Source: Acidobacteriota bacterium
GTDB taxonomy: Bacteria > Acidobacteriota > Vicinamibacteria > Vicinamibacterales > UBA8438
DNA length: 57,850 nucleotides
Direction: 5' to 3'
Assembly: GCA_009861545.1 (NCBI GenBank)
Contig: VXME01000050.1
Span: 2,329-60,178 of the forward strand
This document shows positions 10,998-39,103 of the stretch, one piece after another (the stretch's first letter is position 1; each line of letters starts with the position of its first letter). Under the pieces are notes generated by a model. The model saw nothing but the letters and a program-made list of their open reading frames with translations, was not told where the DNA came from and searched no databases. Made by a program: the position numbers and the translations under genes.

Positions 10998-11068
10998 TTC
11001 TCCATCCGGCGTCGCCGGACCCTGTATTCGTGAAACAGCGGTACCGTAGTTTCTCTTTAGGGTGAACG

Positions 11069-13894: not shown

Positions 13895-14026
13895 CGTCTA
13901 GCCTCCTCCCTTCTTGGGCTACTTGCGATCCACCGCGTCTAGTCCATGTTCCGCCGTCATCGTCCGCGTAGATCCCGCATCGATCCAGGTCCCTGGGCCG
14001 CCGGAGCGAGTATCCACTTGCCCCCC

Positions 14027-14824
14027 CTAGTCCGGCCGAGCCGGCGAACCAGACGATGCCGCGGTGGATTGGACCAAACGCCACTCCGCGTGGATTGTGC
14101 AGGCGGCGAGCTCGATGCGCCGGATGGTGATCTTGGCGTCTGACCTGTCGATCGCCACTTGGCCCGCTGATGGAAGCCCCCGGTAGGAGCAGTTGATCAC
14201 CGGACCGTCGGCCGCGAATGCTGACTCCGGAGTGTCCTCCAGAGACTTGAACAGGTCGGATGGAATCTCGACGAGTTGGTAGCGGTTCGGCATCTGGGCC
14301 GGTTCGCGGAATGCTCTAAGCAGGATGATCGCGTCCACCGCCCCACGATAGTCGCGGAACAGCTCCAACGTGCGCTGGCGGCGTGCCTTGGCGCTTCTTA
14401 CGTCCTGAATCCAGGCGGCTTCTGTTAGCTTCGAGATGTGCGCGGTGCGCTCGCGGAGGTTCTTGGCGGCCGTCGACTTCAACGACAACCGTCGCGTTTT
14501 TCCGTCGGGAGGTGTGACGGTCATGTCCACGAATCTTCGCGTCGCCGATCCGGGCGGGTCAGTGGGCCAGGCCACGGCTTGACAAGCGTTGCGGAACACG
14601 GTCTCGAAGCTCGTTTGCACGAGAGGCTCCGTTGTAGCGCCGTGGTGCGCCGAAACCGCGAGTCCGAAGTACTCGATCCAGTCGGGATGCTTGGTCAACC
14701 AGGTCGGCGTTACCGTGTGCGGCGTCGGCGCTTCGGACAGCGAGTCAACGAGCCGCGCCACAAACCGGACGGCCATCGGCGACAATGTGTCGATGCGCGC
14801 CTTGAGAGTGTCGCGATCGTTCAT
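14027..14824 (-). CDS. Type II restriction endonuclease (partner of the adjacent methyltransferase)
   Basis: A 265-residue protein with no membrane or signal sequence. RFVDMTV followed about 12 residues later by LSLKSTAAKNLRE looks like a PD-(D/E)xK core (D, then S-L-K in place of E-x-K), followed by ISKLTEAAWIQD. The start overlaps the methyltransferase stop (ATGA) on the same strand, the classic arrangement of a type II restriction-modification pair. Recognition site unknown; a beta-class methyltransferase with SPPY often modifies cytosine N4. Confidence 0.7.
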   Translation of the reverse strand: MNDRDTLKARIDTLSPMAVRFVARLVDSLSEAPTPHTVTPTWLTKHPDWIEYFGLAVSAHHGATTEPLVQTSFETVFRNACQAVAWPTDPPGSATRRFVDMTVTPPDGKTRRLSLKSTAAKNLRERTAHISKLTEAAWIQDVRSAKARRQRTLELFRDYRGAVDAIILLRAFREPAQMPNRYQLVEIPSDLFKSLEDTPESAFAADGPVINCSYRGLPSAGQVAIDRSDAKITIRRIELAACTIHAEWRLVQSTAASSGSPARPD

Positions 14825-15747
14825 CTGCTCATGCGCCGCTCGATCAGGCGAACGAACTCGGCCTTAAGCTCGATACCGACCCACCGTCGTCGCAGTTGCG
14901 CCGCCGCAAGCAGGGTTGTGCCCGAGCCGGCGTACGGATCGAGCACGACGTCGCCCGGTTCACTCGTAAGCGTGACGCAGCGCTGGGCTAGGTTGATTGG
15001 CATTGGCGCGGGGTGATCGTCGTCCGGAATCTGGCCGCGCCGGCGCGGGCGGGTCGGAATGTCCCATACACTTCTCAGCCGCCGGTCGTTAGCCCCGCGC
15101 ACCGCGGTGACATCGTAGTAATAGTCCTGGTCTCTCGACAGCAAGAAGACCGTCTCGTGCGCCTTGGTTGGCCGGTCGCCGACCGACTCGGGGTGCGCAT
15201 TCGGCTTGTGCCAGATCACCTCGGACCGCACCCACCAGCCATCGTCCTGCAGCGCGAAGGCCACGCGCCACGGCAGTCCGATCAGATCCTTGGGTTTGAG
15301 CCCGTGTGGTGTCTGCGGGCGGACCGACATCGCGCGCGCACGATTCTTCCTGTCCGGCGCCCGGTAGCGGCGATTCCCCGAGGTGTAGGCATCGCCGATA
15401 TTCAGCCATACGGTTCCGTCGCCCCTTAGCACGCGCCGGAGCTTGCGGAAGTCGGCAACGATGCTTGCTACGTAGTCGCGCAGCGTGTCGTCCCGGCCGA
15501 ACGGGTCTCCGATGTCGTAGTCACGTAGCGACCAGTACGGTGGCGACGTAATCACGGTCCGCACGCTCTCGGTGGGCAACAAGTCAAGTGCTTCCGAGGC
15601 TCTTCCGCGAATGAGCGTCGCGGCCGGCAGGGCAGGGAGTTCACCGTCTGTTTCCGTATCGAGACGGACGTACGGTGGGGTGTGGTCGCCCTCTGGATCC
15701 TGCGGGGTAGCCGCCTCAGTGGGCTGGATCGAAAAGAGCGTGCTCAC
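14821..15747 (-). CDS. Beta-class DNA methyltransferase, probably N4-cytosine
   Basis: A 308-residue enzyme. The catalytic motif IV TSPPYW (residues 67-72) comes before the AdoMet-binding motif DPYAGSGTT near residue 275, which defines the beta class. SPPY rather than DPPY favours N4-cytosine. A target-recognition region lies between them. The endonuclease gene follows with an ATGA overlap, so this is the protective half of the restriction-modification system on element A. Confidence 0.88.
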   Translation of the reverse strand: MSTLFSIQPTEAATPQDPEGDHTPPYVRLDTETDGELPALPAATLIRGRASEALDLLPTESVRTVITSPPYWSLRDYDIGDPFGRDDTLRDYVASIVADFRKLRRVLRGDGTVWLNIGDAYTSGNRRYRAPDRKNRARAMSVRPQTPHGLKPKDLIGLPWRVAFALQDDGWWVRSEVIWHKPNAHPESVGDRPTKAHETVFLLSRDQDYYYDVTAVRGANDRRLRSVWDIPTRPRRRGQIPDDDHPAPMPINLAQRCVTLTSEPGDVVLDPYAGSGTTLLAAAQLRRRWVGIELKAEFVRLIERRMSR

Positions 15748-16205
15748 GGCACTCAGTGCCTCGATCGTCCATGGTCAGCACCATCAGCCGGCCGCGGTCA
15801 CGGCGGGCGCAGAATGCAAACCCATGCTACCACGGACCACGCGAGCAGCCGTACCGGGGAGCAGCATCACGCGCGGCTGGGCCTACCAGCGGGGCCGGCA
15901 CGCGCCCGCATGCGGAACACGTGATGAGTGCTCGGTGCTCGACTTGAGCCGGACTGGACCTGAACCCCGACGCGAGCTAGGCTGTACAGCATAACGGCCC
16001 GGATGAACCGGGCTGTGATGAACCGCCGCGCCGGGACTGCCCACCAAGCTAATCGGCGACGGCCTATCAAGGAGGGCGTCATGCCCCCAAAGGCTACGTG
16101 TGCGCCGAGACTGCCCGCGCCGTCAAGATTCCACACCGTCGCCTACGTCGAATCCATCAAGCGACTGATCCTGTTCGAGCACGTCTCGCTCGGGGAGGTA
16201 CGGTG
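15748..16205 (+). other. Region without a convincing gene
   Basis: It contains the upstream region of the methyltransferase gene and a short frame from ATG 16081 (about 41 codons, ending just before 16206) preceded by AAGGAGGGCG, a good ribosome site. That frame ends in LILFEHVSLGEV and may be a real small gene coupled to the next one, but nothing in it is recognisable. Confidence 0.3.
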
Positions 16206-16430
16206 ATGCGGCTGCTAGAAATCAACCCGGAGGAAGGCCAGACAGTAGAACGTCGAGACGAGAGGGGGTTCATTGAGGTCTGGATTGTCGAGGCCGCAGG
16301 CGAACGGGATGGCGTCGCGTTCGTCCGCGTAGAACACGATGGGCTGAGAGCCGAGATTCGTGGAACAGACATGACGAGTGATCGAGGCGGACCTGTGCTC
16401 AATGACGATGAGTGGGTTGGATTGGGTTGA
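16206..16430 (+). CDS. Small hypothetical protein
   Basis: A 74-residue acidic protein starting at ATG 16206, with GGGGAGG about 9 bases upstream. It is beta-strand rich (RGFIEVWIVEA, VAFVRVEHDGLRAEI), looking like a small beta-barrel. Unknown function; first of two small rightward cargo genes. Confidence 0.45.
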   Translation: MRLLEINPEEGQTVERRDERGFIEVWIVEAAGERDGVAFVRVEHDGLRAEIRGTDMTSDRGGPVLNDDEWVGLG

Positions 16431-16518
16431 TGCTCAAGTCGACCCACCGCGAGCGCGGCTGCATCGCATCCCTCACGCAGTGGATCTGGATCGAGCGCGG
16501 CTCGCTCGGGGTCGAATA

Positions 16519-17043
16519 ATGGGTTCATCAAGCTACAAGAGAATCGTTCACGTCGTCATCGGAGACGACCTTCTTTCAACAATCAAGGGATCGCGTGATC
16601 CCGACTTCATGTCCGTCGATCAGGTGCCGACAAGCACCTTTCGGTTCAGATTCAAGATCGAAAAACAAGGGCATGACGACTCCACCGGGAGCGACTTCGA
16701 CTGGTGGTTCCGCAAGCTCATTGAGGCGTCGGAAGCGGCGCGAGAGAGCGGACAATCGCAGGTGGTTTCAGTGGTGGAGGACGTCTACAACACAGGAACC
16801 TACTACCAGAACAAGTGGTCCGGGATGCTCGCAACGGGAGTTAACGACTCTCCGTGCCGGCATAGAGACAACGAAATCCTGTTTCAGTTCGAACTGAAGG
16901 TAGCTTCCTTCACCCGCACGTTCATTAGAGAAGAACACATGCCACGCGAAGGGCGATGGCTGGAACGGGCGCTGGACGACGAGTTTCAGGAAGGGTGGAA
17001 CCACCCGGAGTTTTCAGAGGGCGTTCGGTTCGATGAAACCTAG
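16519..17043 (+). CDS. Hypothetical protein, 174 residues
   Basis: A soluble protein from ATG 16519 with no recognised motif; alternating strands and helices (RIVHVVIGDDLL, FRFRFKIEKQG, FEWWF-like DFDWWFRKLIEA). The GGGGTCG preceding the ATG is a weak ribosome site. Lower GC than the transfer genes marks it as cargo. Confidence 0.5.
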   Translation: MGSSSYKRIVHVVIGDDLLSTIKGSRDPDFMSVDQVPTSTFRFRFKIEKQGHDDSTGSDFDWWFRKLIEASEAARESGQSQVVSVVEDVYNTGTYYQNKWSGMLATGVNDSPCRHRDNEILFQFELKVASFTRTFIREEHMPREGRWLERALDDEFQEGWNHPEFSEGVRFDET

Positions 17044-17060
17044 TTTACGCCCGCCGTAGG

Positions 17061-17321
17061 TCAATCCGTTGGCGCGTTCAACATGCCTCGGACGATTCCC
17101 TCCACTTCGGCCAGCCGCTCGACAACATCATCGAGCCTGCCATCAAGGTGTCCTATATCGGAGGCCAGCCCGCAATAGCCCGTCAGAGCCACCGTTCCGA
17201 TGGTGGCCAGAACTGTTAGGATTTGGCGCCACGTGACCGAAAAGTACAGGCTTCCGTCCGGGTGGATCGGTTCCTGTGGCGTCGCGAAACGCCGGCCACC
17301 TGGATCAAGACGCTCTCCCAT
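17061..17321 (-). CDS. Small membrane-anchored protein with coiled coil
   Basis: An 86-residue protein with one transmembrane helix (ILTVLATIGTVALTGYCGLA) and a heptad-like C-terminus (LDGRLDDVVERLAEVEGIV). It overlaps the upstream minus-strand gene by one base, so the two are probably made together. Small membrane partners are common effectors in defence pairs, but no family is recognised. Confidence 0.5.
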   Translation of the reverse strand: MGERLDPGGRRFATPQEPIHPDGSLYFSVTWRQILTVLATIGTVALTGYCGLASDIGHLDGRLDDVVERLAEVEGIVRGMLNAPTD

Positions 17322-17581
17322 TACAGCTTAGCTTTCAGAGCTTCCAGCTTCTCTACCAGCGCGTTATCGCCGAATCCAGAGTAGTAGTTGGCGGTCACCA
17401 CGGCGCCTCGAACGGAGTTTTCTTTATCCATGCCAAGCCAGTCCGAGAAATCCTTAGCGGAGGTGTGATCGCTGTAGGTAAACCACGCACCGGGCGCGAT
17501 CTCAGCACGATTCGAGGCATCGATCTGGCGCTCGACCCGCTCTGTATATTCAGTCGGAACGACGACGACGTACAGGGGCAC
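17321..17581 (-). CDS. Small hypothetical protein, operon partner of the membrane protein
   Basis: An 86-residue soluble protein with an initial strand (MPLYVVVVPTEYTERVERQI) and a compact alpha/beta look. It is immediately upstream of the small membrane protein. Function unknown; a sensor/effector or toxin/antitoxin pair is possible but unsupported by motifs. Confidence 0.5.
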   Translation of the reverse strand: MPLYVVVVPTEYTERVERQIDASNRAEIAPGAWFTYSDHTSAKDFSDWLGMDKENSVRGAVVTANYYSGFGDNALVEKLEALKAKL

Positions 17582-17735
17582 AATGCTTCGACCCTATACG
17601 ACTTGACGGAGCGTGTCCAGCGCGACGCGATCCCCAAAATACACTCGTAGCGCCGGGGCATATACGCGACGACAGGGGACGCGCAACGACCCCAACGGTG
17701 GCGATCCACAGTGGTGGAGGATCGCCCGCCTACCC

Positions 17736-17891
17736 TCAATCACCCGCCTGAAAAGGCGGCGCCACTGCTGATCCGAGCTGCCGAACCTCAAACCGCGTTT
17801 CGCGCATCTGGTTGATGACATCCACAACCTCGCTGCGCGTTGGAAATTGGTACTCCTGACCGGCGCCCCCGCGCACAATCACAGAATGCAT
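17736..17891 (-). CDS. Possible 51-residue protein
   Basis: A short frame from ATG 17891 (MHSVIVRGGAGQEYQF ... FQAGD) with ordinary-looking composition and a plausible fold start (strand, then helix SEVVDVINQMRETRFEV). It precedes the other two minus-strand small genes. No ribosome site is obvious, so this is tentative. Confidence 0.3.
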   Translation of the reverse strand: MHSVIVRGGAGQEYQFPTRSEVVDVINQMRETRFEVRQLGSAVAPPFQAGD

Positions 17892-18128
17892 CCGGATTGC
17901 CAGGGTGAACGGCTACATTCGCGAATCGGCCACGGGCCGGCCTCCCGTTCGTCGAAGCCGAATACCTCCCATCGTACCACGGAGCGCCGATGTGACCACA
18001 GGTGGCGTTCTGTGGACCGCAGGCGAGACCGGGAGCGGTTCGAGAACGGGGGGTGGAACGAGGGGATGGGCCGTCGGCAGAGCGTGTTACACCCTTACTT
18101 TACAGCACTTTACGGGGCCTAGAGGGCA
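17892..18128. other. Right end of element A, non-coding
   Basis: No gene seen. The last 45 bases contain ttacaccc, tttacagc and tttacggg in close succession, resembling the TTACRCC motifs of the conserved block, and may be recombinase arm sites. Confidence 0.4.
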
Positions 18129-18137
18129 GTTCGACAA
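18129..18137. repeat. Right attachment repeat of element A
   Basis: GTTCGACAA, identical to 7514-7522. The virB4 frame resumes in phase here (TTC GAC AAC CCG). Confidence 0.8.
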
Positions 18138-18771
18138 CCCGCCGGCCCCGCAGGCGGACCTGACGCTCTCCGACTGGCAGGTGATCGACCTGGCCGGCGC
18201 GGTCGAGCACGAGGACTGGTGCGAGGCGGCGCTTCTGTACCTGCTCGAGAGGCTGCGGACCGAGATCGAATCGCCGGCCGAGGCGACGCGCCTCAAGCTG
18301 ATGGTGGTCGACGAGGCGTGGCGGTACCTGCGCGATCCGGTGGTGCTGGGCCGGCTCACGGAGGCCGCGCGCACGTGGCGCAAGCGCAACGCGGCGCTGA
18401 TCCTGGCGACCCAGTCGGTGACGGACATCACGCAGACGCCGGGCGCGGCGGCGCTCCTCGAGTCGATGCCGACGCGGCTCTTCCTGGCGAATCCGGACTT
18501 CCCGGAGGCGGGGCAGGCCACCTTCCAGCTCGGCGACGACGAGCTGCGGACGGTGCGCGAGCTGGAACCCAAGCGGGAGCTGTACCTGCGGCGGCCCACG
18601 ACGGCGGCCGTGCTGCGCCTGGCGGTCGATCCGGAGAGCTACTGGCTCTATACGTCGTCGGCGGGCGAGGCGCAGCGGCGCGCGGAGATGGTGGCGCGCT
18701 ACGGGGTGGAGGGCGCAATTGTCCGCCTGGCGGCGGGACTGGATCACAAGCGGGCGGCGGTGCTCGGGTGA
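18138..18771 (+). pseudogene. virB4: VirB4 ATPase, 3' part
   Basis: It continues virB4 without a start of its own: PPAPQADLTLSDWQVIDLAG, then Walker B LKLMVVDEAW about 50 residues in, the TQSVTDI motif and the C-terminal TrbE region to the stop at 18771. Residues match what the 5' part lacks. Joined at the repeat, the two halves give a complete ATPase. An open frame continues upstream into element A, but that part is element DNA. Confidence 0.9.
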
Positions 18772-23003: not shown

Positions 23004-23985
23004 ATGACGCTCAACGAGCTGCTGCTGATGCTGCAGCAGGCCGGGATCCTGACGGGCCAGATCATGGCCGCGGTGGCGCCCGGCCGGGGCGACCGCGGGG
23101 ATGCAGCTCTGGCAGGGGCTGGCGCTCATCGTCGTGGTCTGGACCGGGGCGCAGATGGCGCTCTCGGGCGGCGGGATCAACATGGCCGCCGTCGTCCGGA
23201 TGGTCATCGGGCTTTCGATCCCGCTCGGCATGCTCCAGTTCTACACGGCGCCCCTGCCGGGCGCGGGCCGCAGCGTGCCCGAGCTGATCACCGGCATGGG
23301 CGAGTGGCTGCAGATGATGATCGTCGCCGACGCCGGCACGGCGATGATGGAGCAGCTCGCGCTTGCGGGCACCGCCTTCCGGGAGCTGCTCGCCGGCGAC
23401 GGGGTCTTCGGGGGGATGGCGTCCCTCGGCTGGAGCGTCGTGACGGATCTGCCGGCCGTGCTCGACGCGGCGTTCGACCTGGCCGTCACCGTGGCGCTGA
23501 TGATGCTGCTGGCGGTGGGCCTGGTCACGGTCTTCGCCATCGGGCAGGCGCAGGTCATGTGGGCGCAGCTCGCGCTGTCGCTCGCGCTCGTGCTCGGCCC
23601 GATCTTCATCCCCTGGCTGCTGGTGCCGCAGCTCTCCTTCCTCTTCTGGGGGTGGCTGCGGACCGTGCTCGTCTACTCGCTGTACGGCGCGGTGGCCGCC
23701 GCCGTCTTCCGGGTCATCACCGAGCTGGGCGTGTTCGTTGTCCAGGGCTGGACGGGCGACATGGCGGCCGGCGTCGAGTGGGCGGGGCCGGACGGAATCA
23801 TGACGGCGTGGCTGCGGTCGCTCGTGACCATCCCCTACATCGTGGCGGCGGGTCTGGCGACGGGCAAGGTCGGCGAGCTGACGCAGATGCTGATCTCGGG
23901 CGGCGGCAACGTCGGCTCCGGCGCCTCGGGGCGGGCGATGCAGACGGCGGCCGTGGCGCGGGTCGCGGTGACGGGAGGGGCGTAG
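23004..23985 (+). pseudogene. virB6: VirB6/TrbL inner-membrane channel protein, frameshift at about 23075
   Basis: AAGGAGAAGGCGAGTC precedes ATG 23004, which begins MTLNELLLMLQQAGILTGQI. The frame then changes near 23070-23080; the +1 frame reads PAGATAGMQLWQGLALIVVV and continues to 23985 with at least five transmembrane helices and the TrbL-type FAIGQAQVMWAQLALSLALV. The full product would be about 327 residues. A one-base indel in gtggcgcccgg explains it, either an assembly error or a real mutation. Translation from ATG 23101 would give a shortened but largely intact protein. Confidence 0.75.
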
Positions 23986-23987
23986 AG

Positions 23988-24641
23988 ATGGCGGCGCGGG
24001 AGTTCGCGGAGATATGGGGGGAGCAGATGCACGCGGCGCGGCATCTGCGCCTGGTGACCGGCGCGCTGTCGCTCGTGATCCTGATTCTCGGGATTGCGCT
24101 CGTGCGCCTGGCCTGGGCGCCGCAGCCGAAGCCGCTCGTCGTGCGGGTCGACGAGGTGGGACGGGCAGAGGCGGTGGCCTACGAGGCGATGGAGGCGCAG
24201 GCCGACCCGCTGGACGCGACCACCGGGTTCTTCCTGCACCGCTTCGTCGTCGACCACTACTCGCGGCGGCAGGGCACGGTGCGCGAGTACTGGGAGCGGT
24301 CGCTCTGGTTCCTGACGCCGGAGGTGGCCAACGCGGCCTACGCGGAGCAGGCGGAGGACGTGGCGGCCACCGCGGTCGGGCTGCGCGACGAGGAGCTGCA
24401 CGTCGAGGATGTGGCCGTGCGCATCCTGCCGCAGCCGGCGGAGCCGCACGGCGCGGCGGCGACCTTCGACCTGGTGCGCATGCGCGGCGGCGAGGAGCTG
24501 GCCCGCGAGTCCTGGTCGGTCTCGATGCGCTTCTCGTTCCTGCCGCAGATCCCGGCCGAGCTGGTCGTCCGCAACCCGATGGGGATCGTGATCTCGTTCC
24601 TCCAGGGCGACCGGATAGTGACGAGCGGGGAGAACCGGTGA
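23988..24641 (+). CDS. virB8: VirB8/TrbF assembly protein
   Basis: A 217-residue bitopic protein: short cytoplasmic N-terminus, one transmembrane helix (LRLVTGALSLVILILGIALV), and a periplasmic VirB8 fold with RFVVDHYSRRQGTVREYWE and a conserved FSFLPQIPAELVVRNPMGI end. VirB8 nucleates the secretion channel. It follows virB6 by 2 bp and overlaps the next start (GTGA). Confidence 0.85.
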   Translation: MAAREFAEIWGEQMHAARHLRLVTGALSLVILILGIALVRLAWAPQPKPLVVRVDEVGRAEAVAYEAMEAQADPLDATTGFFLHRFVVDHYSRRQGTVREYWERSLWFLTPEVANAAYAEQAEDVAATAVGLRDEELHVEDVAVRILPQPAEPHGAAATFDLVRMRGGEELARESWSVSMRFSFLPQIPAELVVRNPMGIVISFLQGDRIVTSGENR

Positions 24642-25594
24642 TCCCGCACCTGAACGGCCGCGCGGCGGCGCTCGAACCGCTCGGCTGGACCGGCCGCGCG
24701 GCCGAGTGGCTGGCCCTGGTCTGCCTGCACAGCGGGGTCTTCCTGCGCGCGCAGTATCTGGCGTTCCTCGGCGGCGGCCACCCCGAGGCGGCGGCTCGAT
24801 TCGTCGAGGAGTACGGCGCGTGGTGCGCGGGAAGGGCCGGGCGTCCGGCGTCCGTGGAGCGGACGTGGCGCGGGTCGACCCGGCTGTGCATGGTGGCGCC
24901 GCGGGCGTTGTACCGAGCCCTGGGGGCAGAGCACGTGCGCCATCGGCGCGAGGCGTCGCCGGCCGTCGTGCTGCGGCGGCTGCTGTCGCTCGACTACGTG
25001 GTCGACCATCCGGGGGAGCCGTGGCTTGCGACCGAGGCGGAGAAGGTCTCGGCGCTCGAGGCGGCGGGCGCTCCGGAGCGGTCCCTGCCGCGCCGCGTGT
25101 ACCGGGGCCGGCGCGGCTCGCGCCGCCGCTACTTCGCGCACAAGCTGCCGCTCGCCCTCGATTCCGGGCGGGCGACGTTCGTGTTCGTCCAGGCGGAGGA
25201 CGTGACCCCGAGCGGGGTCCGGACGTGGGGCGAGTCGCACGCCGCGCTGTGGGCGGCGCTGCGCGCGGCCGGCCGCGCCGTCGAGGTCGTCGTCGTGGGC
25301 CGGGACCCGGAGCGCCTGGCGGCGGCCGAGCCGGTCCTCGCCGGCTGGACGAAGGCGGCGGCGGCAGGCGCCGCGGCCGAGGGCGGGGCCGAGGCGGCGC
25401 GGCTCGCAAGGGCGGAGTTCGCGGAGATCCAAGCGGCGGTGGCGCGCGGCGACCTCGCCGCGCTGGAGGCCCACGGCGGCATCAACGGCGCGCTGGGCAG
25501 GATGCGCGAGCTGTCAGCCGCCGCCGCGGGCGCCGGCGGGGCGGTGGCGATCACGAGCGGGCGGACGTGGCGCTCGAAGCGGGTGCCGTCATGA
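24638..25594 (+). CDS. ICE transfer-operon copy of the integrase-partner family
   Basis: A 318-residue protein from GTG 24638, overlapping both virB8 and virD4, so it belongs to the transfer operon. It is colinear with the partner genes of elements A and B: EWLALVCLHSGVFLRAQYLA, VLRRLLSLDYVV, ATEAEKV, RTWGESHAALWAAL, VVVVGRDPERLAA, and the same C-terminal GRTWRSKRVPS. Identity to A and B is visibly lower than between A and B. Placement next to the coupling protein hints at substrate selection or DNA processing at the channel entrance. Family unrecognised, with a possible N-terminal winged helix. Confidence 0.75.
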   Translation: MIPHLNGRAAALEPLGWTGRAAEWLALVCLHSGVFLRAQYLAFLGGGHPEAAARFVEEYGAWCAGRAGRPASVERTWRGSTRLCMVAPRALYRALGAEHVRHRREASPAVVLRRLLSLDYVVDHPGEPWLATEAEKVSALEAAGAPERSLPRRVYRGRRGSRRRYFAHKLPLALDSGRATFVFVQAEDVTPSGVRTWGESHAALWAALRAAGRAVEVVVVGRDPERLAAAEPVLAGWTKAAAAGAAAEGGAEAARLARAEFAEIQAAVARGDLAALEAHGGINGALGRMRELSAAAAGAGGAVAITSGRTWRSKRVPS

Positions 25595-27600
25595 TGCGCC
25601 TGCTGGCCGGCGCGTCGGCCGCCGCTGCCGTGTGGGTGTGGTGGCCGTTCCCGGCGCCCGGCGCCGATCCGGTCGCCGACCTGATCGCGATGCACTCGCC
25701 GCGGCTGCACGCCACGATCCGCGCCTGGCACTACCTGGCGCCCGCCCTGGCGGTCGTCGGGGCCTGGTCGGTGGCCACCTCGGTAGGGCTGGTGTGGCTC
25801 GCGGGCGGGCGCAGCCGGCCCCCCGCCGGCACGCTGCCGCCGTGGCCGGTCGACGCGGCGAACCCGTCTCCCGCCCTGGTGGTCGGCGAGGTGCACCATC
25901 CGGTCACCGGACGGGAGGCGGCATCGCCGCGGTGGCTCGTGATCCCCGAGACGGGCCTCTACACGGGCATGCTCATCTGCGGCGCGATCGGCTCCGGGAA
26001 GACGTCGGCCTGCATGCGCCCGTTCGCGCGCCAGCTCCTGAGCTGGCAGGCGAAGGACTCGCGCCGCCGTATCGCCGGCCTGGTGCTGGAGGTCAAGGGC
26101 GACTTCTGCCATCAGGTGCGCGGGATCCTGAACGACGCCGGGCGCGCCGGGGACTACGTCGAGCTGGGGATCGGCGGGCGCTGGCGCTGGAACCCGCTGG
26201 GCGACGATCTCCTGGACTCCTACTCGCTCGCTTACACCATCGCGAGCCTCATCAACCAGCTCTTCGGGCGCTCGAAGGAGCCGTTCTGGCAGCAGGCGTA
26301 CGTCAATCTCGTGCGCTGGATCATCGAGCTGCACCGCATGGCGCCCGAGCGCTGGGTGACGCTGCAGGACGTCTACCGCTGCACGCTCGACGCGGAGAGG
26401 ATCGACGCGAAGATCGCCGAGGTCGAGGCGTTGGTCGAGCCGCAGGCGACGGTCCGGGTGCGGATGGCGGACGTGGCCCCGCACGGCGACGAGCTGGCGG
26501 CGTGGTCGTGGCTGCCGGAGGCCGGCGGGATCCTCCGGATGTCGGACGACCGGGAGCTGTGTGAGCAGCTGGCGAAGCTCGGGATTCCGTTCGAGATGGA
26601 CCGGCGGGCGCCGGCGGACCCGACGCGCCCGCAGCGTCTCGACGCGGTGAAGCGCTGGTACGCGCAGGACTGGCTGACTATCGATCCGAAGCTGCGGTCC
26701 AGCATCATCGAGGGCCTGAGCGTGTTCCTCTCGGTCTTCGACCTGCCCGACGTCGCCGCGACCTTCTGCCCGCCGAAGCCGGCGGCCGAGCCGGCCGGCG
26801 CGCAGGGCCCGTCGGGCGCCGATGCGCCTGACGCGCCGTCCGCCGACGCGGTGGCCGTCGCCAGGCCGCTGCCGCCGCTCGACCAGGTGATCGACGATGG
26901 CCGGGTGCTGTGCCTGAACATGGCCGCCGGCACGAACCCGGCCCTCGCCCGCGCGGTGGGCGTGCTCCTCAAGCAGGCGTGGCTCCAGACGCTGCTCCGC
27001 CGCCCCGCGGAGATGCAGCGGCGTCCGGGGCGCGTCTTCCGGCCGGCGATGTTCCTCTGCGACGAGTACCAGACCTTCGCCACGGTGGGCGAGGACGACC
27101 CGGCCGGCGACGAGAAGATGTTCGCGCTGACGCGCCAGTCGCGCCTGATCCCGATCGTGGCGACGCAGTCGATCTCGTCGCTGCGCGCCGTGCTCGGCCA
27201 GTCCGAGGCGTGGCGGGCGCTGCTCCAGACGCTGCGCACCCGCATCTTCCTGTCGCTCGCCGACGACTCGTCGGCGCAGATCGCGAGCACGCTCTGCGGC
27301 CAGGTGGCCCGCATGAAGGCCTCCTACACGGTCTCGGAGCAGACCCAGCGTGCCGGCGCGTCGCTGCTGTCGGGCTCCGCCGGGGGCGGGACCGGCAGCG
27401 TCGGGGCGAGCAAGGCGTTCTCCGAGCGCCGCGAGCCGCTGTTCCATCCGCGCGACTTCGCCCTGCTGGGCAACTGCCAGGCCATCGTCATGCCCTACGA
27501 CGGCCGCCGCTCGCTCGACGCCCGGCGCTGCTACCTCAAGCCGGACTTCCTGCCGCGGGACCGCCCCTACTGGCGCGCCCGCGAGGCCGGAGAGCTGTAG
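25591..27600 (+). CDS. virD4: VirD4/TraG coupling ATPase
   Basis: A 669-residue type IV coupling protein: two N-terminal transmembrane helices (about residues 5-25 and 50-75), Walker A GAIGSGKTS near residue 131, a Walker B-like FLCDEYQTF, TQSISSL, and a TraG C-terminal segment. An alanine/proline-rich insert lies at about residues 395-425. It brings DNA-relaxase complexes to the channel. The ATG at 25591 overlaps the preceding stop. No relaxase is recognisable in the window. Confidence 0.9.
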   Translation: MMRLLAGASAAAAVWVWWPFPAPGADPVADLIAMHSPRLHATIRAWHYLAPALAVVGAWSVATSVGLVWLAGGRSRPPAGTLPPWPVDAANPSPALVVGEVHHPVTGREAASPRWLVIPETGLYTGMLICGAIGSGKTSACMRPFARQLLSWQAKDSRRRIAGLVLEVKGDFCHQVRGILNDAGRAGDYVELGIGGRWRWNPLGDDLLDSYSLAYTIASLINQLFGRSKEPFWQQAYVNLVRWIIELHRMAPERWVTLQDVYRCTLDAERIDAKIAEVEALVEPQATVRVRMADVAPHGDELAAWSWLPEAGGILRMSDDRELCEQLAKLGIPFEMDRRAPADPTRPQRLDAVKRWYAQDWLTIDPKLRSSIIEGLSVFLSVFDLPDVAATFCPPKPAAEPAGAQGPSGADAPDAPSADAVAVARPLPPLDQVIDDGRVLCLNMAAGTNPALARAVGVLLKQAWLQTLLRRPAEMQRRPGRVFRPAMFLCDEYQTFATVGEDDPAGDEKMFALTRQSRLIPIVATQSISSLRAVLGQSEAWRALLQTLRTRIFLSLADDSSAQIASTLCGQVARMKASYTVSEQTQRAGASLLSGSAGGGTGSVGASKAFSERREPLFHPRDFALLGNCQAIVMPYDGRRSLDARRCYLKPDFLPRDRPYWRAREAGEL

Positions 27601-28611
27601 ATGGAGCTGAACGTCGCGGACCTGAAGCCGTTCCTGCCGGGGCTCGAGGCCGTACTCGACGACGAGGCGGTCTCCGAGGTGATGGTCAACGGCCCCGCGG
27701 CGGTCTTCGTCGAGCGGGCCGGCCGGGTGATCGCCCTCGACGCCCCGGCGCTCACCGCCGAGGCCGTGGCGCGGGCCGCGATCCAGATCGCCCGCCCGCT
27801 GGGCGAGGACCCGGCGACCGATCCGATCATCGACGCGAGGCTCGCGCACGGCTCCCGCGTGGCCGTGTGCAGCCCGCCCGCGGCGCCGGCGACGGCGATC
27901 ACGATCCGCCGCTTCGGCGGCCGGGAGTTCACGATCGCCGAGCTGACCGCGAGCGGCTCGCTGCCCGCTGCCGTGGTCGACGCGACCGCGGACGTGCTCC
28001 GAACGGAACGCAACGTGCTGATCTCGGGCGGCACCGGGTCGGGCAAGACGACGTTGCTCAACGCGCTGGTGGCGCTGCTCCCGGCCGAGGGTCGGGTGAT
28101 CTCGATCGAGGACACCCTGGAGCTGCGGCTCCGCCGGACGAACTGCCTGCGCTTCGAGGCGAGGGGGCTCGCGGGCCGGAACGTGACGATCCGGGACTTG
28201 GTGCGCCATGCGCTGCGGCACCGGCCGGATCACATCGTCGTCGGCGAGGTCCGCGGCGCCGAGGCGGCCGACCTGCTCCAGGCGCTGAACACGGGGCACG
28301 GCGGCAGCCTGGCCACCGTGCACGCGAACAACGCCGCGGCGGCGCTCTCGCGCCTGGCGACCTGCGCCATGCAGGCGGGCGACGCGCTGCCGTGGGCGGT
28401 GGTCTGCCGCGGCGTGGTCGACGGCATCGAGGCGGTCATACACCAGACGCGGACGCCCGAGGGCGTGCGCCGCGTCGACCAGATGGTGCGCGTGCGGGAC
28501 TACGACGCGCGGGACAACCGGTGGGTGGTCGAGCCGGTCTGGCCGGCCGCCGGCGCGGAGGCGGTGACGAACGGAACGGAGGAATGGAGGTGCAGGGATG
28601 AACGAACGTGA
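27601..28611 (+). CDS. virB11: VirB11/TrbB hexameric ATPase
   Basis: A 336-residue secretion ATPase that switches the machine between pilus building and DNA transfer. N-terminal domain (SEVMVNGPAAVFVERAG), Walker A GGTGSGKTT near residue 143, Walker B-like HIVVGEVRGAEAADLLQ, and the His box TGHGGSLATVHANNAAAAL. It abuts virD4 with no gap. The C-terminal tail beyond WPAAGAEA is short and polar, and its coding sequence overlaps the next small gene. Confidence 0.93.
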   Translation: MELNVADLKPFLPGLEAVLDDEAVSEVMVNGPAAVFVERAGRVIALDAPALTAEAVARAAIQIARPLGEDPATDPIIDARLAHGSRVAVCSPPAAPATAITIRRFGGREFTIAELTASGSLPAAVVDATADVLRTERNVLISGGTGSGKTTLLNALVALLPAEGRVISIEDTLELRLRRTNCLRFEARGLAGRNVTIRDLVRHALRHRPDHIVVGEVRGAEAADLLQALNTGHGGSLATVHANNAAAALSRLATCAMQAGDALPWAVVCRGVVDGIEAVIHQTRTPEGVRRVDQMVRVRDYDARDNRWVVEPVWPAAGAEAVTNGTEEWRCRDERT

Positions 28612-28786: not shown

Positions 28787-28947
28787 TGGGCAAGATGAAA
28801 GAGAAGGCCGACGAGTACCACGAGCAGTTCGCCGCCCGCATCATCAAGGCGCTGGAGGAGGGGACGGCTCCGTGGCAGAAACCGTGTCCACCATATTTGA
28901 AAAACCGTCAAGTCATATTCCATCCATGGTGCATGTTAAGTTACTGA
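28786..28947 (+). pseudogene. ardC: ArdC-type anti-restriction protein, 5' fragment, interrupted by element B
   Basis: ATG 28786 opens the ArdC N-terminus (YHEQFAARIIKALEEGTAPW, then QKP). At 28878-28886 (gaaaccgtg) element B begins; about 20 foreign residues follow and the frame stops at 28947. The rest of the gene lies at 45254-46951. ArdC proteins bind single-stranded DNA and protect incoming plasmid DNA from restriction. As sequenced the gene is split. Confidence 0.88.
28878..28886. repeat. Left attachment repeat of element B
   Basis: gaaaccgtg here and at 45256-45264; the ardC reading frame crosses it in phase on both sides (AAA CCG TGG). The offset of 16,378 bp gives the element length. 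Confidence 0.8.
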
Positions 28948-28949
28948 AT

Positions 28950-28966
28950 AGTAATCAATTATTACT
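28950..28966. promoter_or_regulatory. Palindromic site near the left end of element B
   Basis: agtaatcaattattact, matching the perfect palindrome of element A at the same relative position. A half site, gttattact, is at 45220-45228 near the right end, as expected for integrase arm sites at both ends. Confidence 0.5.
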
Positions 28967-28978
28967 CACATCCGGGCA

Positions 28979-29007
28979 TTGACGTGGAACGAGGCGTCCT
29001 GTACGAT
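28979..29007 (+). promoter_or_regulatory. Integrase promoter, element B
   Basis: TTGACG (28979-28984), 17-bp spacer, TACGAT (29002-29007), equivalent to the element A promoter. Confidence 0.65.
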
Positions 29008-29049
29008 CCATATGTATCCGCCATTATGTGAGGGGAATACTGGTAGGCC

Positions 29050-30273
29050 ATGGAACTCCCGATACGATCCCGGAACCGCAAGCCCACCGGTCGGCAACCC
29101 TACCACGCGCTCTCGGCCGCCTTCGTCCGCAACGTAGCGCAGGCTGGCCGCTACTGCGACGGCAACGGCTTGTACCTCGACGTGCAACCGTCCGGCACTC
29201 GTAGCTGGGTGCAGCGGCTCGTCATCCGCGGCCGGCGCCGCGAACTCGGACTCGGCGGTTTCCCGCTCGTTCCGCTCAAGGACGCCCGCGCCCAGGCGCT
29301 CGCCAACCGCAGGCTCGCCCGCGCCGGAGGCGATCCCTTGGCCGAGAAGCGCCGCATCAAGAGCATGCCCACCTTCGCCGCCGCCGCCGAGGCGGTCTGC
29401 GCCCAGATGCGTCCCGGCTGGCGCAATCCCAAGCACGGCAAGGACTGGCTGTCGAGCATGGCCCGCTTCGCCTTCCCCCGCCTCGGCAGGCTGCCCGTCT
29501 CCGAGGTGACGACCGCCGATGTGGTCAAGGCGCTTCGCAAGGTCTGGCACGAACGGCCGGCGACGGCGCGGCGCGTACGCCAGCGCATCAGCACCGTCAT
29601 GGAGTGGGCCATGGCGATGGACTACCGCAACGACAACCCCTGCGACCGTATCGGGCCGATCCTCGGTCCGCAACAGGATCTCGTCCAGCACATGCGGGCG
29701 CTGCCCCATCGGGAGGTAGCGTCGGCGATCGAGACGGTGCGGGCTTCGGGCGCGGTTTCGGTCGTCAAGCTGGCGTTCGAGTTTCTCGTGCTGACGGCCG
29801 CGCGGTCTGGTGAGGTCCGAGGAGCGCTGTGGGCCGAGATCGACACCGAGGAGCACGTCTGGACTGTGCCGGCGACGCGGACGAAGGCCAAGCGCGAGCA
29901 CCGCGTGCCGCTGTGCCGGCGCGCCGAACAGATCCTCGACGCGGCTCGGACGCTTGGCGGCGGCAACCCGCTCGTGTTCCCAAGCGGGCGCGGCAAGCAG
30001 CTGGCCGACATGGCGGTGTCCGGACTGCTCAAGGACCTGGAGATCGGAGCCGTTCCGCACGGCTTCCGGTCGTCGTTCCGGGACTGGGCCGCGGAGGAGA
30101 CGAACCACCCGCGCGAGGTCGTGGAGGCGGCGCTGGCCCACGTGGTCCAGAACAAGGTCGAGGCGGCATACGCGCGGTCCGACCTGTTCGAGCGGCGGCG
30201 GCGCTTGATGGACGACTGGTCCGCCTATGTCGGCGGCGGCGCGGGGGCGCCGGCCGATGATCGCCCATCTTGA
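29050..30273 (+). CDS. int: Tyrosine integrase of element B (DUF4102/P4 type)
   Basis: A 407-residue sister of the element A integrase with the same domains: arm-binding DUF4102 region (CDGNGLYLDVQPSGTRSW), core-binding domain, and catalytic TAARSGEVRG, HGFRSS, ALAHVVQN and AAYARSD with the Tyr nucleophile. GTGAGGGG lies 18 bp before ATG 29050, so a non-ATG start closer to it (for example CTG near 29040, out of frame) was considered and dropped. The N-terminal 20 residues differ most from A. It overlaps the partner gene by 17 bp. Confidence 0.92.
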   Translation: MELPIRSRNRKPTGRQPYHALSAAFVRNVAQAGRYCDGNGLYLDVQPSGTRSWVQRLVIRGRRRELGLGGFPLVPLKDARAQALANRRLARAGGDPLAEKRRIKSMPTFAAAAEAVCAQMRPGWRNPKHGKDWLSSMARFAFPRLGRLPVSEVTTADVVKALRKVWHERPATARRVRQRISTVMEWAMAMDYRNDNPCDRIGPILGPQQDLVQHMRALPHREVASAIETVRASGAVSVVKLAFEFLVLTAARSGEVRGALWAEIDTEEHVWTVPATRTKAKREHRVPLCRRAEQILDAARTLGGGNPLVFPSGRGKQLADMAVSGLLKDLEIGAVPHGFRSSFRDWAAEETNHPREVVEAALAHVVQNKVEAAYARSDLFERRRRLMDDWSAYVGGGAGAPADDRPS

Positions 30274-31249
30274 GGACCGCGCGACGGCCCTGATGGCGCG
30301 CGGCTGGACGCGCCGCGAAGCGGAGTGGCTGGCGCTGGTCTGCCTGTACAGCGGCGTGTTCCTCCGTTCGCAGTACCTCGCCTTCATTGGCCGGACCAAT
30401 CCGGCGCTCGCGTACCGCTTCATCCGCCGGTGCCGTAAGTACGTGGTCGAACAGCCGTGGAACGGCTCCCGGCTTAGGGTCTGCCGCATCGCGTCGCGGC
30501 GGATCTACCAGGTGCTTGGGATCGAGCACATCCGGCATCACCGGCCCGCTGCGCCGGAGGCCGTACTGCGGCGGCTGCTCGCGCTCGACTACCTGCTCGA
30601 ACGTCCACGCACGTCGTGGCTCCCGACCGAGGCCGAGAAGGTCGGCGCGCTGACTGCGGCGGGGATCGCCAAGGATGTGTTCCCGCGCAAGCTCTACCAG
30701 GGCGCGGTCGGGGCGCAGTGCCGGTTCTTCCCCCACAAGCTGCCGGTCGCGCTCGACACTTGGCGGGCGACGTTTGTGTTTGCCCAGGACGAGAAGGAGA
30801 CGGAGAGCGCGGTCCGCACGTGGGGCTCGCAGCATGCGGCGCTGTGGGCGGGGATCGCTGCGGTCGGCCGCGCCGTCGAAGTAATCGTCGTCGGCCGTGA
30901 TCCGGAACGTCTGGCGGCGACCCAGCGGGTACTCGACAAGTGGGCCTCGACGCCTCCGGAGTCCGTCACGATGGCCCACGAGGACGCGGCGGCCGAGGTG
31001 GCCGCGATCAAGAACGCGATCGCGACGAGCGACTGGGCCGCGCTGGAAGAGTACGGTGGCCTGAACCCCGCGCTGCAGCGCACGCGCATCCTCGACGCAG
31101 CCTGTGCTGGAAGCCGCCGATCCACGGCCGCGATCACGACGGGTCGGACGTGGCGCTCGATGCGCGTGCCGTCTGACCTCTTGCCGGCCGTGGCGTCGGC
31201 CAGTTACGCCCGGTCTCGGATGCGGGGCCCGTTACTTCGTCATCGGTAG
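30257..31249 (+). CDS. Integrase-partner protein, element B
   Basis: About 330 residues, strongly similar to the element A partner up to RVPSDLLPA, after which the tails differ. It has the same landmarks (EWLALVCLYSGVFLRSQYLA, VLRRLLALDYLL, EVIVVGRDPERLAA, GRTWRSMRVPS). The start ATG 30257 lies inside the integrase end, as in A, so coupling is conserved. Function unknown; see the element A entry. Confidence 0.75.
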   Translation: MIAHLEDRATALMARGWTRREAEWLALVCLYSGVFLRSQYLAFIGRTNPALAYRFIRRCRKYVVEQPWNGSRLRVCRIASRRIYQVLGIEHIRHHRPAAPEAVLRRLLALDYLLERPRTSWLPTEAEKVGALTAAGIAKDVFPRKLYQGAVGAQCRFFPHKLPVALDTWRATFVFAQDEKETESAVRTWGSQHAALWAGIAAVGRAVEVIVVGRDPERLAATQRVLDKWASTPPESVTMAHEDAAAEVAAIKNAIATSDWAALEEYGGLNPALQRTRILDAACAGSRRSTAAITTGRTWRSMRVPSDLLPAVASASYARSRMRGPLLRHR

Positions 31250-31419
31250 CTCCGTACCTCAGTGGCGAAGGCCACAAACGACGTCACGGCCCCGCCGACC
31301 ATCAGAAACCCGGCCGGCACGACACCGAAGTCCCTGATGCCGAGCGCTCCCACCACCATCGCGGCGATCGCGATACGCTGCACGATCCTTGCGACCTTTC
31401 GCTTCTTCTCTCTGTCCAT
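31240..31419 (-). CDS. Small two-helix membrane protein, 59 residues
   Basis: A minus-strand gene from ATG 31419 with GGAG 6 bases upstream: basic start (MDREKKRKVARIVQR), then two hydrophobic helices (IAIAAMVVGALGI and GFLMVGGAVTSFVAFA). Its end overlaps the partner gene's end by 10 bp on the other strand. It lies in the segment that element A lacks. Unknown function. Confidence 0.5.
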   Translation of the reverse strand: MDREKKRKVARIVQRIAIAAMVVGALGIRDFGVVPAGFLMVGGAVTSFVAFATEVRSYR

Positions 31420-31524
31420 GTTCGGCTCCTTCCGCGATAGTACTTGCCGTCCGGGTCATCGAGAACGTCGCTCAGCGCGTCGAGCTTCTCGGTCAGGCAC
31501 TAGTGCAGCTGACGGCTCGCGGTC

Positions 31525-31786
31525 GCCGCCCGAGATTACACCCGAAGTGCCGCACCAGAGGTGTAAGTAGGACGGAGCGCCCAATTTACGCCCGGAATCA
31601 CACCGCCTGTCGCGTTCCCGCCGGCCGCAAGTCCCTCGCTCTCAACGCGATCCAATATCCCGCCCACCCCAATAGTGCCGCTCAATGTGACATGGGGTGG
31701 GTAGGGGAGCGACCCACCGCAAGACTGGCGTTTTGCGGACCCGGCAGGTGTTCCTCTGTCACACCTGCCGCGCCGGGTCGCTCCCC
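31525..31786 (+). other. Conserved non-coding block with three-way-junction fold, element B copy
   Basis: Counterpart of 9834-10094. Outer stem ggggagcgaccc (31704-31715) with gggtcgctcccc (31775-31786); inner hairpin ccgcaagac/gttttgcgg; second arm ggcaggtgt/acacctgcc with loop TCCTCTGTC. Stem changes relative to A keep pairing in the inner hairpin. The first 85 bases are more conserved than the neighbouring genes appear to be. Confidence 0.6.
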
Positions 31787-31919
31787 TGGAAAGTGTCCCT
31801 CCCGGAAGGGGGAGCACGGCGCTCGCAGTGCCTGTCCGGGCCGGCTGCTATGCTCTTTTGTCAAAGACTGTCGCTACGCGGCAACGCCCGCGGAGCAGCT
31901 TCTGGTGAACGGCCAACTA

Positions 31920-32189
31920 ATGACCAACGGCAGCCTGACGAAGGCGGCGCTCATCGAGGAGGTGGCCCACACTGTCGGGGTCTCGAAGAGGCGCGCCGAG
32001 ATAGTCGTCGACACCCTGTTCGGCAGCATCGGTGAGGCGCTTCACCAAGGTGAGAAGGTCGAACTCCGCGGCTTCGGGAGTTTCCGTCTCCGACTCCGGC
32101 CGCCGCGCCGACGCCGCAACCCCAGGACCGGCGACGGCGTGGACGTGCCGCCGAAACACGTCGCTTGCTTCAAGCCCGGCAAGGACTGA
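31920..32189 (+). CDS. HU/IHF-family DNA-bending protein
   Basis: An 89-residue HU/IHF fold: LTKAALIEEVAHTVGVSKRR helices, then VELRGFGSFRLRLRPPRRRR and the R-N-P-R-T-G DNA-binding arm. The end after VDVPPKHVACFKPGKD matches normal family length. Such proteins bend DNA for tyrosine recombinases, and IHF assists spacer acquisition in some CRISPR types; either role could explain its place between the integration module and the cas genes. An upstream in-frame GTG is an alternative start. Confidence 0.88.
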   Translation: MTNGSLTKAALIEEVAHTVGVSKRRAEIVVDTLFGSIGEALHQGEKVELRGFGSFRLRLRPPRRRRNPRTGDGVDVPPKHVACFKPGKD

Positions 32190-32336
32190 AGGAGCTGATC
32201 AACCGGGACCCGGCGCAGCCCGTCTCAGCGCCGTTGTCCGAGTAGCCGGCGGCTCCTTCGCCGCAATCCGAAAGTCGGTCCATGACCAAGAAAGAACGGC
32301 TGCCGGGACCGCACCTGACCTGACTGGAGGGCCGGT

Positions 32337-32591
32337 ATGCATGACCTTGAGAAGCGACTTTGGAAAGAGGCTGCGGACATGCAGCGCATTGGCATCGCCG
32401 CCTTGGTCATCGGCGGTGGCGCTCTCTTGCTAGGGTGCTTCGTTTTCGTGACCACGCCGCCGATCACGGAGCGCCAGGTGTTGTCGATCGTGTGGGCTGG
32501 TGTCGGCGCCGGGTGCTTCGGTATAGGGGTGGCAGCCTACAACGCCGGTAACGCGATCCTGCACTGGATCGAGAAGGACCAAAAGGAGTAG
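32337..32591 (+). CDS. Small membrane protein, 84 residues
   Basis: From ATG 32337, preceded by GGAGGGCCGGT. Two transmembrane helices (IGIAALVIGGGALLLGCFVFV and IVWAGVGAGCFGIGVAAYNA) and charged ends (MHDLEKRLWKEAADM, HWIEKDQKE). Unknown role; possibly an immunity or stress membrane protein of the element. Confidence 0.5.
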   Translation: MHDLEKRLWKEAADMQRIGIAALVIGGGALLLGCFVFVTTPPITERQVLSIVWAGVGAGCFGIGVAAYNAGNAILHWIEKDQKE

Positions 32592-32948
32592 AAGTGCGCT
32601 CGGATCTAGCGCCTACAGTGCACCCGGCAGGCCCCGCATGCTGACCGTGCCGACGCGCCGCCGACCACCGAACTGGCGGGTCGGATCCGCTTGGCCGCCG
32701 TGGTTGTCGATGCGGTGGCATCCGTATTCCATCAGCTCCGTCTCGGCCGCACCGCGCTAGGTGCGGTGTCACTACACCGCCTCGAGGATCGCGCGATCCC
32801 CCCCAGCGCCGAGCAGTGTCGCTATACCAGCCCCGCCGTACGGCCGCGAGATTTGCTCGAAACAGGTCCTGGCCGGATCAACCACAACTTTGGGAGCGAG
32901 AGAGGGAGTTACGGACAGCCAATCGCCATGATCGGGGCCGCGGCGGAC
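32592..32948. other. Gap without a recognisable gene
   Basis: About 360 bp with several short GC-rich inverted repeats (for example accgc...gcggt near 32748-32766) and no frame with a credible start. Nothing further recognised. Confidence 0.3.
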
Positions 32949-33494
32949 CTATCGCCCGCGTTCGACGCTCCGCTCCGGGAACGCGGCCTCCGCCGCTCGC
33001 CGCACCGACGCCTTCACCAGCTCGCCGGGGAACAACTCTCGATACACCCGGATCGCCTCGTCTGGACCCTTGAGCCCGAGATACTTGCACAGCAACGCGA
33101 TATCCCCCTGGTCCTTGCCACGGCCCGCCGCCAGCTTCATCGCCAGCAGATGCCGGGCCGACGCGCCGGTGACCGTCAGGTACGCCGACTCGTACACCGT
33201 CTGCGCACGGCCGTCCGGCGTGCGCGGGATCGCCGTCGTCGCCTGGTCGTTGAGCCACGAATCCGCTAGCCCGTGCCTTCGGCCGACCGTCTGTACCGCC
33301 TGCGTCAGCCGGTAGTGCCCCGCGTCGATCCGTGCGTCCACGTCCCGCGTCGCCCGCTCACGGTCGAACGCCAAGCTCATCGCCGCGCCGCCGATGATGT
33401 AGATCTGCGCCCGGGCGCCCTGGAACCTCAGCTCCCTCGACAGCTCATCGAACAGCTCAACGATGCGCTTGCGGTCAAGCAGCTCGTCAGCCAT
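32949..33494 (-). CDS. Nucleotidyltransferase-fold protein (DUF6036/AbiEii-like)
   Basis: A 181-residue protein with the minimal nucleotidyltransferase signature: YIIGGAAMSLAF near residue 32, then RATRDVDARID, giving the G-G...D-x-D core. LLAMKLAAGRGKDQGDIALL is the usual helical follow-up in DUF6036 proteins. Such proteins form the enzymatic half of toxin-antitoxin or abortive-infection pairs. The upstream gene ends 4 bp before its start, consistent with a two-gene unit. Confidence 0.7.
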   Translation of the reverse strand: MADELLDRKRIVELFDELSRELRFQGARAQIYIIGGAAMSLAFDRERATRDVDARIDAGHYRLTQAVQTVGRRHGLADSWLNDQATTAIPRTPDGRAQTVYESAYLTVTGASARHLLAMKLAAGRGKDQGDIALLCKYLGLKGPDEAIRVYRELFPGELVKASVRRAAEAAFPERSVERGR

Positions 33495-33498
33495 GCCG

Positions 33499-33978
33499 TC
33501 AGAACAGGCTCGGCCAGGGGGTCCACTGATGGCGTTCCCCCCCGCGGCCGTCGAGATCCCGGGGATCCGGTATCGCGCCGTGCCGCAGGAACGCGGCCGG
33601 AGAGTACATCAACGCATTCGCCCGTATCAACGGCGACGAGAACACAACCCACGTGCTGTCGAGGAACCGTTCCGGCTCGTCCACCCAGGCCGGCGCATCA
33701 TGCCCATGCTGCCGGGCCACGTGTTCCACCGTCGCCGCAAGGAGCGCGTCCCACTTCGTTCCCGTCAGCCGGGGCCGGCCCGCGAGCGCCGCGCGTTGCT
33801 CCGCCGCGGGCAGAACGTGGAAGTTGCGCGGAAGGCCGCACACAATCAGCCGATAGATATCCGCTTCCGGCCAGTCCTCCTCGATTCCGACGAGGTAGCC
33901 GTCCAACCACAAGGGGGAGGGGGGGGTATCACGCTGCTGCAGATCAGTCATTTCCGGCGGCCAGGGGAGCTGGCGCAA
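33499..33978 (-). CDS. Partner protein of the nucleotidyltransferase, unknown family
   Basis: About 160 residues, starting at TTG 33978 (LRQLPWPPEMTDLQQ); the frame stays open a little further upstream, so the true start may lie nearer 34020. It has the motif RETK-like GTKWDALLAATVEHVARQHG and a compact helical C-terminus. It is transcribed just ahead of the nucleotidyltransferase, the position of a cognate antitoxin or regulator. Not recognised otherwise. Confidence 0.5.
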   Translation of the reverse strand: MRQLPWPPEMTDLQQRDTPPSPLWLDGYLVGIEEDWPEADIYRLIVCGLPRNFHVLPAAEQRAALAGRPRLTGTKWDALLAATVEHVARQHGHDAPAWVDEPERFLDSTWVVFSSPLIRANALMYSPAAFLRHGAIPDPRDLDGRGGERHQWTPWPSLF

Positions 33979-34133
33979 TTCACGTGCCGTGTCACCGAGA
34001 GCCTCCGTGACCAGCCGCCGCTTTGATGGCTCTCTGAGTTTGAGAATACCACGACCGACGCCATTCCAGGGTCGGCAGCCATCATGACGCGCCCGCAGTG
34101 TACGCGAGGCGCAATCCTGTACTAGACCGTTTG

Positions 34134-34161
34134 TTGACAGTGCCCGTCCCTCGCTTAGCGC
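34134..34161 (+). promoter_or_regulatory. Possible cas operon promoter
   Basis: TTGACA (34134-34139) with a weak TAGCGC 16 bp later (34156-34161), upstream of cas3. If used, the transcript begins near 34168, which excludes the upstream in-frame ATG 34098 as the cas3 start. Confidence 0.35.
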
Positions 34162-34235
34162 ATCAGAAAGGCGAGAAACTCAAATTAACCCGAAGACCAC
34201 CCCACATCGTTTCCCTGCGAGCGGACGGCAAGGCC

Positions 34236-39101
<4,866 letters not shown>

Positions 39102-39103
39102 CA

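Follow-up and report, generated by a model that had tools for sequence, protein, structure and literature searches.

A gene for a predicted winged-helix protein and its adjoining hairpin as a putative mobilisation module of an ICE and of islands nested in it

What could a gene of an ICE transfer operon be doing in islands that lie within that same ICE? The question is raised by the window analyzed here, the whole 57,850 nt stretch of an Acidobacteriota contig (VXME01000050.1), which encoded three intact, colinear homologues of a gene that we call X. X-ICE (24638-25594, + strand, GTG start) encodes a predicted winged-helix plus PD-(D/E)XK-like protein. It overlaps the stop of virB8 (23982-24641, +; Pfam VirB8) by 4 nt and is followed by genes for the coupling protein virD4 (25591-27600, +; Pfam TraG-D_C and TrwB_AAD_bind) and the ATPase virB11 (27601-28611, +; Pfam T2SSE). 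X1 (8886-9875, +; ORF open from 8841) and X2 (30257-31249, +; ORF open from 30227) belong to two islands, E1 and E2, and start 17 nt ahead of where the stop codons of the preceding integrase genes end.

X in the transfer operon and in the islands

Over its full length X-ICE was 61% identical to X1 (E 1e-100) and 57% identical to X2 (E 1e-94), X1 and X2 shared 85% identity, and the motifs EWLALVCL, TEAEKV, VGRDPERLAA and GRTWRS were confirmed in all three. An earlier note had described the genes at 8886, 24638 and 30257 as colinear and motif-sharing, with the ICE copy between virB8 and virD4 and the other two coupled to an integrase, and the identities, the flanking Pfam domains and the 17-nt overlaps bear out this description. 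The dN/dS ratio was 0.18 between X1 and X2 and 0.40-0.56 between these two and ICE copies, which indicates that the element genes were kept as proteins under purifying selection. The same genome also encoded a fourth X copy of the ICE type (contig C56, locus L061), where virB4 is uninterrupted.

Element E1 (7514-18142, 10.6 kb) splits virB4 into a 5' part (5739-7527, +) and a 3' part (18129-18771, +) and is bounded by the 14-nt direct repeat GTTCGACAAYCCGC (7514-7527 and 18129-18142), as determined by alignment to the uninterrupted virB4 of loci L061, L063 and L064. Element E2 (28878-45264, 16.4 kb) is inserted in ardC, identified by its ArdcN and MPTase-PolyVal domains, between two copies of the 9-nt direct repeat GAAACCGTG (28878-28886 and 45256-45264), and the empty site is found in L061. 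Both islands encoded a P4-type tyrosine integrase (7655-8902, + in E1 and 29050-30273, + in E2) with the Pfam domains Arm-DNA-bind_3, Phage_int_M and Phage_integrase. No mating-channel (T4SS) genes were matched between the direct repeats of either island, and there was no Pfam relaxase among the scanned ORFs. E1 and E2 therefore resemble IMEs in having their own integrase, in being discrete with an empty site in relatives and in containing no mating-channel genes; in the place of an oriT and/or relaxase they have only X and a candidate hairpin. In locus L095, virD4 of a Gemmatimonadota-type ICE contained an inserted integrase gene (11970-13282) whose product shared 68% identity with the E2 integrase and which had no X beside it. 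The target sites of this integrase and of E1 and E2 shared no more than a loose AA(n)CCG core, so that on these sequences site choice looks relaxed and not virB4-specific.

X is a conserved core gene of the ICE transfer operon. It lay between virB8 and virD4 in every complete ICE operon found, down to 26-29% X identity, in hosts comprising Acidobacteriota, Gemmatimonadota and Proteobacteria MAGs, and was not found in plasmid, phage and IMG/VR collections. A tree was calculated from 49 X sequences labelled as ICE or non-ICE, with well-supported branches starred. ICE copies were present in every major branch and accounted for almost the whole outgroup; copies from VirB-less loci as well as integrase-linked copies took several separate positions among them. 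The starred branches forced at least seven changes between ICE and non-ICE labels (shuffled mean 16.5). The separate positions and the forced changes point to repeated capture of X by islands from ICEs. The E1/E2-type genes grouped together in a single clade (100/99), and the larger clade around them (100/98) had no other members than window-type ICE copies, with a donor-branch support of just 66/29. Element copies of X most likely derive from ICE copies; with this outgroup, capture by islands from ICEs is the direction that suggests itself, the change counts alone being no proof of it. The earlier note had named two outcomes that would speak against its own reading of X, unrelated folds and a gene linked to integrases throughout bacteria without conjugation. 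We found a single family with ICE copies throughout and a strong link between X and conjugation. The sources were mostly MAG contigs, for which mis-binning is possible.

A hairpin unit downstream of X

Downstream of X we found a conserved noncoding unit. A leader about 170 nt long comes first and is followed by GGGAGCGACCC, a pair of inner hairpins, GGGTCGCTCCC and lastly the short palindrome TCCC..GGGAAGG; the GGGAGCGACCC...GGGTCGCTCCC hairpin is predicted to form a three-way junction. It was present within 900 nt downstream of X in 39 of the 45 testable genes (full-length, with at least 800 nt of downstream sequence), usually 165-185 nt from the stop and in ICEs and islands alike. Single-sequence folding with RNA parameters gave energies of -52 to -80 kcal/mol, compensatory changes were seen at the outer stem ends and in one arm, and a control search with the reversed pattern yielded 0 hits. 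Within one genus the hairpin occurred in 5/5 genomes with X and in 1/6 without X. An Rfam scan of the window gave no match and the hairpin showed no homology to a known oriT. The ORF clusters c12, c13, c22, c24 and c35 downstream of X were rejected as genes, being the noncoding hairpin leader.

In the window, candidate oriT hairpins follow X1 (10013-10093, +; three-way junction, predicted -64 kcal/mol with RNA parameters) and X2 (31705-31785, +). A third hairpin (48330-48409, -) has no adjoining X and lies about 2.2 kb past the end of ICE homology; its assignment to the ICE is doubtful, as the DNA there matches a non-ICE region of another genome. The stretch 46296-48530, which holds a sigma-54 activator gene and this solo hairpin, is 82-85% shared with contig C74 of genome G003 (L167), and similar pairs of hairpin and sigma-54 gene are found in L161. 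The hairpin was located between X and virD4 in the ICEs L091, L101, L182 and others; window-type ICEs had none in this position, and X lineages outside the main clade had no such hairpin. X-less hairpins were found beside integrase or AlpA genes or alone; they fit oriT-only hitchhikers, but also a dispersed repeat. In L111, L114 and L134, paired X genes face each other over two hairpins of opposite orientation.

The loci could be arranged from whole ICE to island. In the ICE of L101 the order was AlpA, virB2 to virB8, X, hairpin, virD4, virB11, ardC, c7 and integrase. Loci L096, L097, L099 and L105 had the order AlpA, X, hairpin, virD4 and integrase, with no VirB genes detected in their available flanks. 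L181 had integrase, X, hairpin and virD4, and E1 and E2 integrase, X and hairpin plus cargo. The gene cluster upstream of X had first been labelled D4 and was corrected to AlpA. What was kept after loss of the channel would correspond to the needs of a mobilisable element, namely a recognition protein, its site and sometimes the coupling protein. Hitchhikers may thus arise by reduction of whole ICEs. According to the earlier note, the islands may carry a mimic of a helper function in order to be recognised by, to hijack or to block the transfer machine; of these readings hijacking fits best, because VirB-less islands keep X and the hairpin and some of them also virD4. Interference with the ICE is possible as well, since the E1 and E2 insertions break virB4 and ardC. 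The same note regarded X as the partner of the integrases. The overlaps in E1 and E2 agree with this, but X also occurs without an adjacent integrase and with virD4, which makes the hairpin DNA the more likely partner. Neither the hairpin unit nor the repeated occurrence of the capture had been part of that note.

We therefore propose, as the probable though by no means certain answer, that X and the hairpin constitute a new mobilisation module, an oriT-binding protein plus oriT, and that E1 and E2 are mobilisable elements with the ICE as both home and helper. In a little-known ICE family, X and the adjoining unit would be the half of a conjugation module that recognises the DNA. The hairpin would be the origin of transfer or part of it, and the wHTH/PD-(D/E)XK-like X protein would bind it and hand the DNA to VirD4. 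E1, E2 and several other lineages would be integrative mobilisable elements that kept or captured X and hairpin, sometimes with virD4, from ICEs and lost the VirB channel or never had it. The islands might then be exported in trans by an intact ICE that shares their cell, with the ICE-only protein c7 as a candidate nicking enzyme.

Predicted fold of X and competing explanations

The structure model of X (pLDDT 88.7) comprised a winged helix at residues about 13-98, matching wHTH chains of MarR/ArsR type (Z 7.4, rmsd 2.4-2.8), and a nuclease-like domain at residues about 103-317 with matches at Z 5.6-7.5 (SdaI 7.5, EndoMS 6.8, XisH (2okf) 6.0 and BspD6I nickase 5.8), all of them at VIA Z values below 8, which can be chance. 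Foldseek searches of PDB and BFVD gave nothing at E <0.001, the best BFVD match being Gp146 of Bacillus phage G (3.8e-3). Searches against Pfam, NCBIfam, PHROGs and PDB sequences gave nothing useful, with perm_prefix_1 and PAS_4 matches far below cut-offs. We did not file X as a MOBC relaxase: among 42 sequences no lysine was conserved at 90% or more and there was no conserved acid in residues 150-190, and no profile match was obtained to Replic_Relax PF13814 or to a pTEF1 TraX-type alignment (hhalign probability 0.8%). Because the catalytic residues are absent, X itself is probably not the nicking enzyme; judging from the model, it may work like the DNA-binding part of a MOBC protein.

An HUH-motif scan over the ICE ORFs revealed no credible HUH relaxase. 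The catalytic relaxase of the ICE may be c7 (3796-4513, +), a second wHTH protein of the ICE (Z 10.9), encoded upstream of virB2. Its D...E...K pattern (D223, E241 and K255) is invariant, with a D-to-E spacing of 18 as in the TraX-like D152/E170; c7 had no profile match and was found in ICE loci only. In the window c7 is frameshifted near 4300, and in L061, L063 and L064 it forms a single open frame. The window copy of the ICE is probably defective, because c7 is split by this frameshift and virB4 and ardC are interrupted. A bolder version of our proposal, which we put forward tentatively, would make X and the DNA cloverleaf an undescribed conjugative initiation module. X would recognise oriT by means of a nuclease fold and might be a relaxase with other residues, and the module would have been taken repeatedly from ICEs by defence islands in ICE transfer genes, the helper being off until they excise.

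The MarR/ArsR-type domain of X and the location of the gene within the operon would also suit a protein that regulates this operon. In that case the hairpin would be an operator or a structured RNA, comparable to the self-encoded small RNA used by SGI1 for mobilisation (PMC9299015), and X would serve the islands in sensing or repressing the ICE, which would be costless to islands that disrupt virB4 and ardC. We consider this unlikely, given that X is not at the operon start, that in most loci the hairpin follows X and is not in a promoter, that islands retained virD4 beside X, and that a cloverleaf of 70-90 nt with covarying arms would be unusual as an operator.

The int/X overlap in both islands, the HU-like gene of E2 and the presence of XisH among the fold matches could instead mean that X assists the tyrosine integrase as an accessory factor in directionality or excision, with the hairpin as a recombination enhancer. 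This seems distinctly unlikely to us, as the oldest and commonest place of X, between virB8 and virD4, has no integrase alongside, the islands already carry AlpA, the hairpins are internal and away from the element ends, and X pairs with very different integrases.

Some hairpins look like dispersed repeats of a palindromic, REP or MITE-like kind, which X or another enzyme would have moved: the Acidobacteriota genome G077 (L169-L172) had 25 hairpin units, spread over its contigs and alike in their flanks, solo copies adjoin unrelated genes, and an IS200-like Y1 transposase is encoded on one hairpin-bearing G077 contig. REP/RAYT repeats and MITEs are likewise palindromic and sometimes multicopy, but the hairpin differs from them in its link to X, from which it is separated by a nearly fixed distance within transfer operons, a distance near-constant in about 30 loci across phyla. 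Moreover, distant X-bearing ICEs have no hairpins, most genomes have few copies, X did not match Y1_Tnp, and the linkage of an HUH Y1 transposase to the palindrome that marks REP/RAYT was not seen, a single Y1_Tnp, in L171, lying at 5 kb from the hairpin. We therefore give this explanation little chance. That X is an ICE gene captured by chance without present function in the islands, for which the broken copies in L073, L102 and L121 might speak, is highly improbable in view of the low dN/dS between X1 and X2, the repetition of the capture and the retention of X together with the hairpin.

Related systems, cargo and flanking DNA

Most mobilisable islands have, to our knowledge, no recognisable means of moving. 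On our preferred reading, X and the hairpin as mobilisation module, the X family and its searchable folded DNA motif would allow many of them, in Acidobacteriota and Gemmatimonadota as well as in further bacteria, to be tied to helper ICEs. Judged by record names, the sources were in many cases sponge-type metagenomes. IMEs living inside their helper ICE have been proven for the IME_oriTs of Streptococcus, which are inserted in the ICE oriT (PMC7563843). Like E1 and E2, for which this is proposed, these are integrase-bearing islands with the ICE as home and helper; they sit in oriT and have a MobT relaxase, whereas the insertion sites of E1 and E2 are virB4 and ardC, and what these islands have is X plus hairpin, no relaxase being recognised in them. 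MOBC relaxases have a wHTH at the N terminus and are PD-(D/E)XK related (PMC12857230), and they are carried by mobilisable plasmids having their own VirD4 (PMC5704250). TraX of pAD1 and MobC of CloDF13 (PMC12857230; pTEF1 record) resemble the predicted X protein in the wHTH followed by a PD-(D/E)XK-like domain, and X also in the gene being near VirD4, but X has no significant sequence or profile match to them and their catalytic residues are not conserved in it. SGI1 and other relaxase-poor mobile genomic islands have, as is proposed for the X-bearing islands, recognition and oriT parts of their own and some helper transfer genes; SGI1 differs in using different proteins and IncC plasmids as helper.

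The cargo of the islands might connect defence genes with the proposed mobilisation route. E1 encoded a NACHT-type NTPase (11069-13435, +; Pfam) and, at 14027-15747 (-), a SmaI-like restriction enzyme (a weak Pfam match, below cut-off) with an N4/N6 DNA methylase. E2 encoded a type I-C CRISPR-Cas system with repeat array (34098-44976, +), whose spacers had no convincing target among the compared loci. The HU-like DNA-binding protein (31935-32189, +; Pfam Bac_DNA_binding) was assigned to E2 only, the apparent match in E1 being translated hairpin DNA. A DUF6036 nucleotidyltransferase gene beside another ORF (32949-33978, -) in E2 is possibly a toxin-antitoxin pair. Left of virB2, the region 591-3748, conserved in L061 and L064, encoded a LexA/S24-type repressor, a protein at 1947-3020 and an IstB/DnaC-like loader and may be a replication and control module of the ICE. 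A further defence cluster might lie to the right of the ICE, at 51258-55701, with genes for a C5 cytosine methylase and for one FRG-domain and one HEPN protein.
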